64,000 nucleotides of DNA from Halomonas binhaiensis (GTDB lineage Bacteria > Pseudomonadota > Gammaproteobacteria > Pseudomonadales > Halomonadaceae). Location of the stretch: NCBI RefSeq assembly GCF_008329985.2, contig NZ_CP038437.2, positions 4,030,001-4,094,000 of the forward strand, in the 5' to 3' direction. The notes beneath the pieces were generated by a model that ran no database searches, had not been told where the DNA came from, and saw only the letters and a list, made by a program, of their open reading frames with translations. The position numbers and the translations under genes are program-made. This document shows positions 12,654 through 17,719 of this stretch, one piece after another. Numbering within the stretch: the first letter of the stretch is position 1; the number at the start of each line of letters is the position of its first letter.

Positions 12654-14234
12654 TCAGCCGACATAGCCGGCGAACGGGCTCAGGCTATGCGGGTGCCTTA
12701 GCCAGGCGTGCAAGTTCTCGATATCCCGGTGCAAGGGATGTTCTTCCATGTAATAGGCCACCTGTTCACGGATCAGTCTCCGCGCCAGCTCCGTTCCCGA
12801 AGCAAAGCCCGGTGCTTCAATCAGGTCGAGCGCCTGGGCAGCAAGCAGCATTTCGATGGCGAGGATCTGATAGGTGTTCTCCAATGCCTGATCCAGCTTC
12901 AGCGCTGCACTCTCGCCGAAGCTGAGATGGTCTTCCTGCAGTCCTGATGTCAGGAAGTTGTCGACCACTGCCGGCTGGGCCAGGCGTTTGTTGTCTGCAG
13001 CCAGGGAAGCTGCCGTGTATTGGGCAATCATCATGCCCGACTTGATACCGCCTTCCCGCGTCAGGAAGGCAGGCAGGTCATTGGCCTGGGGAGTCACCAG
13101 GCGATAACTGCGGCGTTCGGACATCGAGCCCCACTCGGCCACTGCCATGGCCAGCACGTCACAGGCCATGGCCACGGAAGCACCATGGGGGTTGGCCTGG
13201 GAAACAATTCGGTAGTGGCCATCTTCTGCGATGACCAGGGGATTGTCGGTCGCTGACTGCAGTTCAAGATCGATCTGGCGCGTGGCATGCTCCCATTGAT
13301 CTCGGCAGGCACCATGTACCTGGGGCATCGAACGCAGGCTGAGCGCATCCTGCAGATGGTCTCCCTGGCACTGCTCCAACCATGGACTATCCGTCAGCAG
13401 ACGGCGCAGTATCCCTGCGGAATGCTGGACCCCGGGGTGGCGCTTGAGCCCTGTCACCGCCGGGTCCAGTGCATCACGCTGGCCGCGCAGTGCCTCGAAG
13501 CTCATTGCCCCGGCAACCTCGGCCCAATCCGCGACACGCGCCGCATCGTCCAGCACCAGGCAGGCCAGCCCTGTCATGGCAGGCGTCCCATTGACCAGAC
13601 TCAGGCCATCTTTCGGCCCCAGTTCCAGTGGCGTGATAGCGTGTTGACGCAGCACCTCGGACGCCGCCATCCGCCCGCCTTCGACCAGCACTTCTCCCTC
13701 GCCGATCAGCACCAGGCCGATATGGGCCATATGCGTGAGATAACCTACGGAGCCTCGGGACGGCACCCACGGCACGATGTTGGCATTGAGCAGCTGGACA
13801 AGCCTTTCGACCAATGCCGGACTGATACCAGAATGGCCATGAGAGTAGTTGATGACGGCACAGCACATGATGGCGCGGACCTGATCCTCACGCAGGGGGG
13901 CACCGACACCGCAGGCATGGCTCATCAACGTATGCTTCGACAGGCTCGATAGCGCTTCACGTTCCAGCACCACATGGCACAGAGCACCAAGCCCGGTGTT
14001 GATGCCATAGTGAGGCACTGTACTGGCCGCAACCTGCTCAACGACGTCTCGGGCTTGCTGCACTCTTTCCCGACAAGCGCGAGACAACACCAGGGGAGCC
14101 GCATGGCGGGCAACATTCACCACATCCCGCCAGGACAAGGGAATATCGCCAATCACAACCTGCTGGTCCATCCGCTCATACTGGTCCATCTTCTTCTGCT
14201 TGCCCGACATCATTTGCATGGATACATCACTCAT
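12654..14234 (-). CDS. MIO-less aromatic amino acid lyase homologue (ergothionase-like)
   Basis: 526-residue member of the HAL/PAL fold. Retained active-site blocks: the catalytic Tyr loop HYGINTGLG (Y76), LVNGTPAM (N215), QDALSLRSMPQV (Q295, R301) and SATDNPLV (N331). The MIO-forming Ala-Ser-Gly is absent: where HutH has GSVGASGD this protein has GSVGYLTH (residues 161-168; codons at 13734-13742 for Tyr-Leu-Thr). It therefore cannot be an ordinary histidine ammonia-lyase. MIO-independent relatives are known as ergothionases, which eliminate trimethylamine from ergothioneine. Co-transcription with a BCCT (betaine-type) transporter fits such a substrate. The start at 14234 (AAGGAG upstream) overlaps the BCCT stop by 8 bp. 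Function is inferred. Confidence 0.72.
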   Translation of the reverse strand: MSDVSMQMMSGKQKKMDQYERMDQQVVIGDIPLSWRDVVNVARHAAPLVLSRACRERVQQARDVVEQVAASTVPHYGINTGLGALCHVVLEREALSSLSKHTLMSHACGVGAPLREDQVRAIMCCAVINYSHGHSGISPALVERLVQLLNANIVPWVPSRGSVGYLTHMAHIGLVLIGEGEVLVEGGRMAASEVLRQHAITPLELGPKDGLSLVNGTPAMTGLACLVLDDAARVADWAEVAGAMSFEALRGQRDALDPAVTGLKRHPGVQHSAGILRRLLTDSPWLEQCQGDHLQDALSLRSMPQVHGACRDQWEHATRQIDLELQSATDNPLVIAEDGHYRIVSQANPHGASVAMACDVLAMAVAEWGSMSERRSYRLVTPQANDLPAFLTREGGIKSGMMIAQYTAASLAADNKRLAQPAVVDNFLTSGLQEDHLSFGESAALKLDQALENTYQILAIEMLLAAQALDLIEAPGFASGTELARRLIREQVAYYMEEHPLHRDIENLHAWLRHPHSLSPFAGYVG

Positions 14235-15843
14235 TGCGAGCTCCTTGCGTCGCGACGCGGCCGTCTGGCTCAGCATCCGCCTCGGGGACGCCCTTGATAT
14301 GTCCGTGGAGCACCTTGGCTGCCGATATCAGGATCAGTGCAAACAGGAACACCACCGTAAAGCCACCGGCTGCCGCCAGGTACTTGATGCCATCGACACC
14401 TTGAGCACCACCGCCAAAGGCCACCATCAGATAGGCAATGGCGCTGATCGACAGCCCCCAGATGACCTTCTGGCTTCTGGGTGATTCCTCATCCGCGGTG
14501 ATGTTCCGCGTGCAGATGGTCGCAATGGTGGCCGACATGGAGTCCGCTGCCGTGGCGAAGGAAAGAATCAACGTGAATATCGCCATCGGCACCAGCAACC
14601 CGGACAGCGGAATGTTCTGCAGAAAGCCCCACAACCCCGACACCGCGCCATGCTCCTGCACCACGGAGATCAGGTCGAGCGTGCCATCGAGCTGCCACTT
14701 CAATGCCGAGCCACCCCAGATGGCGAACCAGACGATGCCAAAGGCGGAAGGCAGCACCCAGTTGATAATCAGGAATTCACGCAGGGTTCGGCCGTAGGAA
14801 ATGCGCGCCAGAAACAATCCCATCAATGGTGCGTAGGCGACCCAGATGGCCCAGTCATACATCGTCCACCAGGTCACCAGCGCTTCACCACCGGATTCCT
14901 TGGTGTCGAATGACCAGCTCAGCAGATGATTGAGCCAATAGCCGAAACTGGTCGTGGATAGGCTGAGAATGTAGGTCAGAGGCCCCACCACGATCAGGAT
15001 GGCCAGGAATGCGTAGAACACATAGGCATTGATCGATGACAGCCAGCGAATGCCTCGCTTGAGCCCTGATACTGCGGAAATCACGAAGATACTGGTGATC
15101 ACCAGCGTCAGTACCAGCCAGGTGACAGGGTTGGAGGCAATGCCGTATTGCGCCTGGATGCCGGAGCCGATAAGCGCCAGGCCAGCGCCCATGGAAGATG
15201 CCAACCCCAGGGTGATAGCCAGCACCGAAATCACATCGATGAGGCCTCGCACCCAGGGTGCATCGCCGTGGCGGCCAAGCACTGGAGCGACCGTGGCGGA
15301 TATCGAGAAGCGCATGCCACGGTTGTAGTGCATGTAGCCAATCATCAGGCCAACGATCGAGTAGATGGCGTAGGGGATGAAACTCCAGTTGTGGAAGCTG
15401 CGAGCCATGGCAAAGACGGCCGCGTCATTGCTGCCGGCGGCAAAGCTCTGCTGGCTGAGCTCACCATAGATATTGCCCAGGTAGATGACCGGCTCATTGA
15501 CCGCATATGTCACCACACCGGTGGCAATCCCTCCGGTCAGTGCCATGGCGAAGGTCGCTGGCATGGAAAACCGGGGCTTGGCGTGCTCTCCCCCCAGGCG
15601 GATGCGCCCTGCCCGGGAAAAGAAGAACACGCAAGTGATCACCAGGGCCGATACCGCGATCAGCTGATACAGCCAACCGAAGTCGGATAACGATATGTAG
15701 AAAATCTTCCGCGTGATTTCCACCAGCAACTCGTTATTCGTCATGCCGACAATCACGGCCAGGATGACGATGGAAAAGACCGGAAAAAACACCTTCTTGT
15801 TGAGAGATTTCTTGTCGGGCAGCTTGTTGTCATTGTTCGGCAT
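14227..15843 (-). CDS. BCCT-family transporter (betaine/carnitine/choline type), divergent
   Basis: 538-residue inner-membrane symporter with about twelve hydrophobic segments. The family signature region is present as YDWAIWVAYAPLMG followed by LFLARISYGRTLREF (residues about 350-378). The glycine-rich stretch before the substrate site reads ALTGGIATGVVTYAVNEP. The aromatic box is altered compared with BetP/CaiT-like members (usual YWAWWIAWSPF), suggesting an unusual quaternary ammonium substrate. The start at 15843 has AAGGA upstream. It is translationally coupled to the downstream lyase gene (ATGAGTGA overlap), so the two probably act on one compound. Confidence 0.85.
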   Translation of the reverse strand: MPNNDNKLPDKKSLNKKVFFPVFSIVILAVIVGMTNNELLVEITRKIFYISLSDFGWLYQLIAVSALVITCVFFFSRAGRIRLGGEHAKPRFSMPATFAMALTGGIATGVVTYAVNEPVIYLGNIYGELSQQSFAAGSNDAAVFAMARSFHNWSFIPYAIYSIVGLMIGYMHYNRGMRFSISATVAPVLGRHGDAPWVRGLIDVISVLAITLGLASSMGAGLALIGSGIQAQYGIASNPVTWLVLTLVITSIFVISAVSGLKRGIRWLSSINAYVFYAFLAILIVVGPLTYILSLSTTSFGYWLNHLLSWSFDTKESGGEALVTWWTMYDWAIWVAYAPLMGLFLARISYGRTLREFLIINWVLPSAFGIVWFAIWGGSALKWQLDGTLDLISVVQEHGAVSGLWGFLQNIPLSGLLVPMAIFTLILSFATAADSMSATIATICTRNITADEESPRSQKVIWGLSISAIAYLMVAFGGGAQGVDGIKYLAAAGGFTVVFLFALILISAAKVLHGHIKGVPEADAEPDGRVATQGARNE

Positions 15844-15936: not shown

Positions 15937-15948
15937 ATGTATATACAT
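15937..15948. promoter_or_regulatory. HutC-like (GntR family) palindrome, copy 1
   Basis: Perfect palindrome ATGTATATACAT, 94 bp upstream of the BCCT start. It contains TGTATATACA, which fits the TGTA-N2-TACA core described for HutC-type GntR regulators. Confidence 0.65.
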
Positions 15949-16041: not shown

Positions 16042-16055
16042 TATGTATATACATA
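16042..16055. promoter_or_regulatory. HutC-like (GntR family) palindrome, copy 2
   Basis: Perfect 14-bp palindrome TATGTATATACATA. Its 12-bp core is identical to copy 1 and lies 106 bp (about ten helical turns) away. Two phased sites suggest repression by looping or two overlapping promoters. Confidence 0.65.
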
Positions 16056-16188: not shown

Positions 16189-16635
16189 TCATTCGTTACT
16201 GGGATAGCGCAAGTGAATCAGCGGATAGGGGCGCCCCTGATCGTCGGTAGTGGAACGCCCCGTACGCTGAAATCCCATGCGCTCATAGAAACCCACTGCC
16301 TGGACATTCTGTTCATTGACGTCAGTGCTCAGCGCAGGACACAGACTCAGGCCATGCTCGACCAGAGCTCGCCCCACACCGGCCCCGCGGTGCTCGGGAT
16401 CCACAAACAAGGCATCCATGTGGCAGTCCGTGAGCAACATGAAGCCAAGCCCCCTATCCTGGCTGTCGACGGCCAGCCATAAGGGAGCATTCGGCAGGAA
16501 TCTCTCCAGCTCCTGCTCTATATCGTGTCGGTCCTGCTCGGAAAGGAAATCGTGAGTCGCATCCACGGCTCCCCTCCAGATTCGCATGGCGCATTGTCCA
16601 TCCGCAGCAGTCGAGCGACGAAACTTGATAGCCAT
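16189..16635 (-). CDS. yjaB: GNAT-family N-acetyltransferase YjaB
   Basis: 148-residue acetyltransferase that closely follows E. coli YjaB: RIWRGAVDATHDFLSEQDR, NAPLWLAVDSQDRGLGFML, HMDALFVDPEHRGAGVGRAL (acetyl-CoA loop RGAGVG at about residues 93-98), TDVNEQNVQAVGFYERMGF. The ATG at 16635 has AAGGA eight bases upstream; ATG at 16644 is too close to it. The natural substrate of YjaB is not established. It lies downstream of the GlxA-type regulator and upstream of the BCCT operon on the same strand. Confidence 0.85.
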   Translation of the reverse strand: MAIKFRRSTAADGQCAMRIWRGAVDATHDFLSEQDRHDIEQELERFLPNAPLWLAVDSQDRGLGFMLLTDCHMDALFVDPEHRGAGVGRALVEHGLSLCPALSTDVNEQNVQAVGFYERMGFQRTGRSTTDDQGRPYPLIHLRYPSNE

Positions 16636-16741
16636 GGTCTTCATTCCTTGAAGCTTCCTCAGCGTCAATGGGTGGTAATCCTGGCTGGCAGTAGTCCCGG
16701 CGGGTGGCAACCCCGGTTGGTGGCAATCAGCGGAGCAAGAA

Positions 16742-17719
16742 TCAGCCCAGTCGCTCTTCCCTTGGCGTCATGCCAAAGTGGTTGCGATAGGCGGTGGAGA
16801 AATGGGCAGCAGAGGAAAACCCTGTCTGCAGGGCAATTTCTCCAGCCGGTCGATCACTTTCACGCAGCATGCGCCGGGCTTTCTGCAAGCGCAGATCAAG
16901 ATAATAGCGACTCGGCACTGACTTCAGGTATTTCTTGAACAAGCGTTCCAGCTGACGGCGGGAAATCCCGAGGTGTTCGGACAGTTCATGGGTCGTCAAC
17001 GGCTCTTCAATGTTGGCTTCCATCAACTGGACCGCCTCGATCAAGCTCTCCGGGGCATGAGCCAGGCGTGAACGCAAAGGCACCTGCTGAGGCTCATCGC
17101 CCATGCGGATGCGTTCCATGACGAAGTATTCCGAGATCCGCGTCGCCAGCGCCGGACCATGCTGACTTTCCACCAGGGTAATCATCATGTCCATGGCCGC
17201 AGTACCTCCCCCGCAGGTAATGCGATCACGATCAATCTCGAACAACTGCTGGGAAAGGCGCACCCGGGGATGAGCCTGTGCGAAAGCCTCAAAGCGCTGC
17301 CAGGGCAAGGTGGCATGATAGCCATCCAATAGCCCAAGCCGCGCCAGTGCCTCGGTGCCGCCCCCAATTCCCCCCAGCACGACGCCAGCCGCGGCCAGGC
17401 GCTTGAGCCAGGCTGCCAGCTCGTCGGGTATTCCTGCCGGCAGCTTGGCCGGCCCGCAGACCAGCACCATGTCAGGCTGCACCGGAGAGTCATCAATGGA
17501 GGCTTTAGGTTGCACGGTTTGCTGTGAAGCACTGGTCACCGTCTCGCCAGAACAGGAATAGCTGGTCAGACGATAGAGTGTCTTGCCATACAACAGGTTG
17601 GCCACATGCAGAGGTTCAGTGGCGCAGGCATGAGCCAGCAGGGAGAACCCGGGCATCACCACAATTCCCACCTGGCGCAACAATGCCGGTGAACGAGTGG
17701 TGATCGAAGGGTTGGGCAT
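16742..17719 (-). CDS. GlxA/GbdR-like AraC-family regulator with DJ-1/PfpI domain
   Basis: 325-residue transcription activator. The N-terminal half is a class I amidotransferase/DJ-1-like domain (VGIVVMPGFSLLAHACATEPL, split as VGIVVMPGFSLL + AHACATEPL; GGIGGGTEALARLGLLDGYH). The C-terminal about 100 residues hold two AraC helix-turn-helices (TTHELSEHLGISRRQLERLF and GEIALQTGFSSAAHFSTAYR). This layout is shared with GbdR, CdhR and SouR, which control glycine betaine, carnitine and sarcosine breakdown. It stands upstream of yjaB and the BCCT-lyase operon, so it is a candidate activator of betaine-type catabolism here. Confidence 0.82.
   Translation of the reverse strand: MPNPSITTRSPALLRQVGIVVMPGFSLLAHACATEPLHVANLLYGKTLYRLTSYSCSGETVTSASQQTVQPKASIDDSPVQPDMVLVCGPAKLPAGIPDELAAWLKRLAAAGVVLGGIGGGTEALARLGLLDGYHATLPWQRFEAFAQAHPRVRLSQQLFEIDRDRITCGGGTAAMDMMITLVESQHGPALATRISEYFVMERIRMGDEPQQVPLRSRLAHAPESLIEAVQLMEANIEEPLTTHELSEHLGISRRQLERLFKKYLKSVPSRYYLDLRLQKARRMLRESDRPAGEIALQTGFSSAAHFSTAYRNHFGMTPREERLG

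Follow-up and report, generated by a model that had tools for sequence, protein, structure and literature searches.

A 64-kb stretch of the Halomonas binhaiensis genome (contig NZ_CP038437.2; hereafter the window) carries a two-gene unit that encodes a BCCT-family transporter and a lyase of the histidine ammonia-lyase (HAL) fold, the latter without the Ala-Ser-Gly triad that forms the 4-methylideneimidazole-5-one (MIO) cofactor. We propose from sequence comparisons, with a probability of about 0.68, that the pair imports hercynine (N,N,N-trimethylhistidine, or histidine betaine) and splits it into urocanate and trimethylamine, as an accessory entry to the histidine utilization (hut) pathway. 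The unit shares predicted operators with that pathway, and this, together with the class of its importer, makes the use of hercynine the most likely function.

The lyase and its missing triad

The open reading frame of the lyase spans 12654-14276 on the minus strand. Translation probably begins at the ATG at 14234, inside the BCCT gene, where AAGGAG just 5' of the codon makes a good ribosome-binding site; read from there (12654..14234, minus strand), the protein has 526 residues, the length of the window's own protein in the database (entry P0001). It matches Lyase_aromatic (PF00221) with 544.7 bits but stays below both NCBIfam histidase cut-offs, by about 35 bits for TIGR01225 (503.8 versus 539.15) and by 0.8 bits for NF006871 (523.2 versus 524), in agreement with a preliminary description of this DNA, which had called "histidine ammonia-lyase" wrong as a routine name.

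The MIO-forming Ala-Ser-Gly expected of a HutH is absent. GSVGYLTH lies at residues 161-168 (codons 13731..13754, minus strand), exactly where the preliminary description had placed it, but the triad has not been replaced by Tyr-Leu-Thr, as was thought; three residues have been deleted, since HutH has 14 residues (GSVGASGDLAPLAH) where the lyase has 11 (GSVGYLTHMAH). The shortened motif, GSVGYL-x-HMAH, occurs in every one of the best 120 of 7983 homologues, the own entry included, and in the lyases of 93 of 93 loci examined. Sequencing error and chance are excluded for this reason, and the enzyme is indeed MIO-less. In the alignment it retains the equivalents of HutH pocket residues Y53, H83, N195, Q277, R283 and E414, labels which we take to be those of the P. 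putida enzyme. In the same numbering Y280 has become Leu and F329 Pro, so that the earlier statement that all active-site blocks but the triad are intact stands for the former residues and fails at these two positions. Mutants of P. putida HutH at Y280, F329 and D145 are named in PDB titles. Leu at position 280 is common to the MIO-less lyases compared, and the pocket residues are invariant in the 32 sequences compared. The AlphaFold model of the lyase has the HAL fold (mean pLDDT 88.1).

The phylogeny was inferred by maximum likelihood from 44 lyases with the triad columns omitted (another tree had 48 rows; both used subsets). The window lyase falls in a clade, here called YLTH, with support of 100/100, and the HutH group, also at 100/100, stands apart from it. 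A placement among the MIO-containing lyases, the outcome that the preliminary description had named as contrary to its view, was looked for in the tree and did not occur. The clade of Treponema denticola ergothionase (100/99), whose other members are Burkholderia, Polaromonas, Paracoccus and Sinorhizobium rows, excludes the window lyase, and an additional MIO-less pair from Rhizobium and Salinicola is supported at 100/100. One branch, with support of 82/81, leaves all MIO-less rows on the same side, a result that is compatible with a single or a multiple origin of such lyases and speaks for neither. The window lyase is 39% identical to the HutH of its own genome and 32% to T. denticola ergothionase. 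By these comparisons it is MIO-less like ergothionase yet outside the ergothionase clade, a conserved and misnamed enzyme in a clade of MIO-less lyases of its own, with its own importer. To our knowledge, ergothionase is the one proven MIO-less enzyme of the HAL fold, and the T. denticola enzyme the one proven member of its clade.

The genome encodes a third PF00221 lyase, PAL/TAL-like and with its ASG triad intact (G000:C1 548454-549812, locus L003).

The importer

The BCCT gene (14227..15843, minus strand) begins with an ATG at 15843 that is preceded by AAGGAA, and encodes a putative hercynine importer of 538 residues (PF02028, 386.1 bits; cut-off 27). Its stop overlaps the lyase start by 8 nt (14227..14234, minus strand), which bears out the translational coupling reported earlier. 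The five NCBIfam BCCT models listed (betaine, choline, carnitine and general) all score far below their cut-offs, the best being betaine_BCCT at 320.7 versus 650. The genome encodes 11 BCCTs, and in a quick tree with long branches the lyase-linked BCCTs form one group (SH-aLRT 100) apart from the 10 others; 18 of the 22 lyase-linked rows were used, those of L024, L028, L029 and L049 being omitted because the translated match crosses a stop near its end. The group has changed stretches in transmembrane helices (TM) 3 (GGIATG), 4 (NW..IPY) and 8 (MYDW), numbered presumably as in BetP. The TM8 Asp is present in 18/18 lyase-linked BCCTs, and the ten others of the genome have Tyr or Phe; this acidic residue could meet the imidazole ring of the substrate. 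No match to EgtD was found in the genome, and hercynine would therefore have to be imported.

Predicted operators shared with the hut pathway

Two copies of the palindrome ATGTATATACAT, predicted HutC-type operators without assigned strand, lie at 15937..15948 and 16043..16054, about 95 and 200 bp before the BCCT start. Exact copies number three in the 4,895,269-base genome, where base composition predicts about 0.06, and the third is 16 bp before hutI. The corresponding TGTA-N2-TACA sites at 15938 and 16044 are the only two in the window (0.44 expected). According to the consulted part of PMC12977541, Pseudomonas HutC binds to TGTA-N2-TACA until urocanate releases it. A HutC is encoded in the genome (L037 5713-6426; TIGR02018, 293.5 bits versus a cut-off of 220), in a hut locus that also encodes HutI, formimidoylglutamase HutG, HutU and HutH; the hut operon lies 1.6 Mb from the BCCT-lyase unit. 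The sole PF01175 match of the genome is the urocanase beside the canonical HutH; the second urocanase-type enzyme, for thiourocanate, which the ergothioneine proposal had led us to look for, did not appear.

Elsewhere in the genome (L038, G000:C1 4768000-4780000), two HutC-type palindromes with one mismatch each lie at 4774026 and 4774211, a distance of 185 bp. The genes downstream of them encode a DcuC-family permease and an M20 enzyme that resembles acetylornithine deacetylase, possibly a HutC-controlled acyl-histidine unit.

Proposed function

In the function proposed here, the BCCT would import a quaternary histidine, most likely hercynine, which would be bound in the retained histidase pocket of the lyase. 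The enzyme would abstract the beta proton and eliminate trimethylamine by acid/base catalysis, leaving urocanate; MIO would be unneeded because trimethylammonium is already a good leaving group. Urocanate would free both operators from HutC and induce the BCCT-lyase unit along with the distant hut operon, and HutU, HutI and HutG would carry it on to glutamate.

If this is correct, hercynine has a breakdown route that releases trimethylamine and meets the histidine pathway at urocanate, and a hercynine carrier is proposed within the BCCT family. Hercynine was detected in 9/10 cyanobacterial strains, according to the consulted part of PMC3826126. Many proteins now named histidine ammonia-lyase would be renamed, and a function would be provided for hutH1 and hutXWV, which many Pseudomonas, P. 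aeruginosa among them, carry in the hut operon although growth on histidine does not require hutH1.

Linkage in other genomes

Stretches of about 20 kb were surveyed from 13 Halomonadaceae relatives and 80 named GTDB loci; hut and transporter genes were located by tblastn, and pieces shorter than 40% of the query were disregarded. L024/L049 and L025/L050 appear to be the same two genomes and are counted in both sets. Core hut genes (HutU, HutI, HutF or HutG) are present in the stretches of 13/13 relatives and 72/80 GTDB loci, with HutU near the lyase in 73/93 loci and 67-92% identical to the window genome's own. The other eight GTDB loci are stand-alone importer-lyase modules, whose genomes each have exactly one urocanase elsewhere (8/8; 73-91% identical to own HutU), and in four of them (L044, L105, L110 and L118) a TGTA-N2-TACA site immediately precedes the importer gene. 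In 51/80 GTDB loci and 3/13 relatives a canonical HutH is no more than 300 bp away from the lyase, which is therefore an addition to HutH there. Together, the operators and the linkage to hutI, hutF and hutG point to urocanate as the product.

A BCCT gene adjoins the lyase on the same strand in 12/13 relatives and 9/80 GTDB loci, and an ATP-binding cassette (ABC) transporter of the ProU/OpuC type does so in 59/80, so that the neighbouring importer is of one or the other type in 80/93 loci. Judged by sequence family, two unrelated families of quaternary-amine importers thus recur beside the lyase. Vreelandella and several relatives typically have the gene order HutU-BCCT-lyase-HutH-permease, from which only the permease is missing in Oceanimonas and Zobellella; in many Pseudomonas the order is HutU-CodB-OpuC-type ABC-lyase-HutH-HutI-HutG. 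OpuAC scores 207.2 bits with the binding protein at the P. aeruginosa PA7 locus (L088), where the ATPase also exceeds the cut-off of the betaine/proline/choline ProV model (363.9 versus 326.6).

The consulted part of PMC8871633 places hutH1 and hutXWV between hutU and hutH in the Pseudomonas hut operon. The genes of P. fluorescens C2 (L079) run from HutU through a CodB-like gene and an OpuC-type permease and ATPase to the YLTH lyase and HutH, the binding protein gene not being picked up by the reference sequences. By position hutH1 is therefore the MIO-less lyase, and by gene order the Pseudomonas "hutH1" beside hutXWV would belong to the same clade as the window lyase.

Several observations weigh against the proposed function. 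The lyase is patchy within the family Halomonadaceae, being present in 14/151 genomes, the own included, and the GTDB set holds the best 80 of 593 candidates, mostly Pseudomonas. In 12/80 GTDB loci the quaternary-amine importer is replaced by an amino-acid-type ABC transporter (the reference binding protein, from L031, is SBP_bac_3), and in Erwinia, Pantoea, Polaromonas and Rhodoferax such an operon and the lyase stand beside hut genes. One of the 13 relatives (G043, L026) has the lyase with no BCCT beside it and none of the importer types, and four of the eight stand-alone modules (L048, L060, L064 and L071) have no TGTA-N2-TACA in the fetched stretch. A plasmid of Paracoccus saliphilus (L129 7911-9599) carries an ergothionase-clade lyase (GSVGEADITLASH) in a full hut locus, adjoining a 78% identical HutU and a canonical HutH; hut linkage alone is therefore no proof of substrate. 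A literature search found no assay of any YLTH-clade lyase. HutXWV takes part in histidine uptake, as reported in the consulted part of PMC8871633, and this counts against an exclusive role in betaine use.

Further MIO-less lyases were also seen. One in Salinicola (L024 5537-6997, GSLGAADLAQLAQ) groups with that of Rhizobium L034 and has an OpuC-type ABC transporter nearby and two TGTA-N2-TACA sites upstream. The lyases of L128 (Polaromonas, ergothionase-clade) and L034 (Rhizobium, AAD-type) are two different MIO-less enzymes with LysR, a sulfate-exporter-family protein and ornithine cyclodeaminase as common neighbours. A conjugative Klebsiella pneumoniae plasmid (NZ_CP083082.1, L033) encodes a MIO-less lyase with GSVGYLIATAH, annotated "aromatic amino acid ammonia-lyase", accompanied by an OpuAC-type ABC transporter, HutC, HutD and formimidoylglutamate deiminase; matches of similar identity occur in several plasmid rows from Klebsiella and E. 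coli. In Rhizobium etli p42e (L032) a MIO-less GSAGYLTHNAH lyase and an amino-acid-type ABC transporter lie in a hut locus with canonical hutH, hutI, hutG and two hutC copies.

Alternative explanations

The preliminary description favoured a histidine-derived betaine, with ergothioneine named first. The betaine class is likely and hercynine is favoured within it; ergothioneine is not supported, because the lyase lies in a separate clade, the one urocanase of the genome is beside HutH, and the genes linked to the lyase in relatives are ordinary hut genes. Neither the operators nor the hut linkage had been noticed in the preliminary description. An ergothionase function, in which the pair would import ergothioneine and the lyase would yield thiourocanate and trimethylamine, is accordingly unlikely, although the fold has a proven MIO-less member in ergothionase (consulted part of PMC13405746), the branch described above keeps the MIO-less rows together, and the window lyase and ergothionase both have Leu at HutH position 280. 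The triad site also differs, being GSVGYLTH in the window lyase versus SSIGEGDITT and GSIGEADIT, and the operators and hutI/F/G linkage favour urocanate over thiourocanate. At one locus, that of Burkholderia arboris, the HutU homologue beside an ergothionase-clade lyase shares only 50% identity with own HutU, as would be expected of a thiourocanate enzyme. A literature search on ergothioneine and BCCT found no proven ergothioneine carrier of the BCCT family.

A somewhat slimmer chance is left to a MIO-free histidase, a second HutH that would remove ammonia from histidine without the cofactor. Group g4, judged to be Salinicola, has six lyase-bearing genomes, and in five of them (G003, G027, G055, G112 and G131) hut genes surround the lyase and canonical HutH was not found among the PF00221 matches, which are a PAL-like MIO lyase and the YLTH lyase, with an AAD-type lyase also in G003. 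The sixth, G043, has a canonical HutH (its fourth PF00221 match was left out of the comparison). The retained histidase pocket and the amino-acid-type importers fit a histidase as well. Against it stand the canonical HutH so often next to the lyase, the linkage to BCCT and ProU/OpuC-type importers, and the chemistry of the family, in which ammonium leaves poorly without MIO. The literature on Pseudomonas points both ways, since the consulted part of PMC8871633 reports histidine uptake by HutXWV and also that hutH1 of P. fluorescens is dispensable for growth on histidine. The related view that the YLTH clade acts on histidine as well as on the betaine, and serves as the histidase of the five HutH-less genomes, is about equally doubtful; a cofactor-free histidase would be still more surprising than a hercynine lyase.

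More doubtful again is another quaternary or N-methylated main substrate, such as N,N-dimethylhistidine or another aromatic betaine. Hercynine is reached by inference here, and the AAD-type MIO-less lyases (L034, L024) suggest additional specificities in the fold, but hut linkage demands a product that HutU accepts, namely urocanate; the carbon frame should therefore be that of histidine, while the leaving group may vary. That the lyase is a dead paralogue of HutH, retained for a regulatory role or as a subunit that partners HutH, would explain the loss of the triad and Y280 and the dispensability of hutH1 on histidine (consulted part of PMC8871633), but is very improbable given the stand-alone modules with no hut gene nearby (8/80 GTDB loci), the five hut-bearing genomes in which canonical HutH was not found, and pocket residues invariant over 32 sequences.

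Neighbouring genes

Genes for a GNAT acetyltransferase (16189-16710, minus strand) and a GbdR-like AraC regulator (16742-17719, minus strand; 310.6 bits, below the cut-off of 480) lie upstream of the operators and share the strand of the BCCT-lyase unit. Downstream of the lyase, on the opposite strand, is a sugar ABC operon, the ATPase and permease genes of which were named by eye.

Comparison with known systems

T. denticola ergothionase (PDB 6s7j/6s7q) resembles the window lyase in its HAL fold without MIO, in the Leu at HutH position 280, in the equivalents of Tyr53, His83, Gln277, Arg283 and Glu414 kept in both and, as proposed here, in the elimination of trimethylamine. It differs in sequence (32% identity), clade and shape of the triad site, and the window lyase's clade is linked to ordinary hut genes. 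HutH (P. putida, PDB 1b8f; own copy at 2399507) shares the fold, the pocket residues, hut linkage and, as proposed, urocanate as the product, whereas the window lyase has no MIO triad, has changes at Y280 and F329, scores below the NCBIfam cut-offs and is 39% identical to the own copy. The solved BCCTs (trimethylamine transporter, BetP, DddT and CaiT-type) belong to PF02028 like the importer, which keeps some of their aromatic box residues, but the window BCCT is in its own subgroup with GGIATG, NW..IPY and MYDW in TM3, TM4 and TM8. The hutH1-hutXWV unit of Pseudomonas (L079, L088) has, by position, a lyase of the same clade and motif, called a histidase in the consulted part of PMC8871633, with an importer directly upstream and TGTA-N2-TACA sites in the locus; its importer is an ABC transporter of the ProU/OpuC class and not a BCCT.

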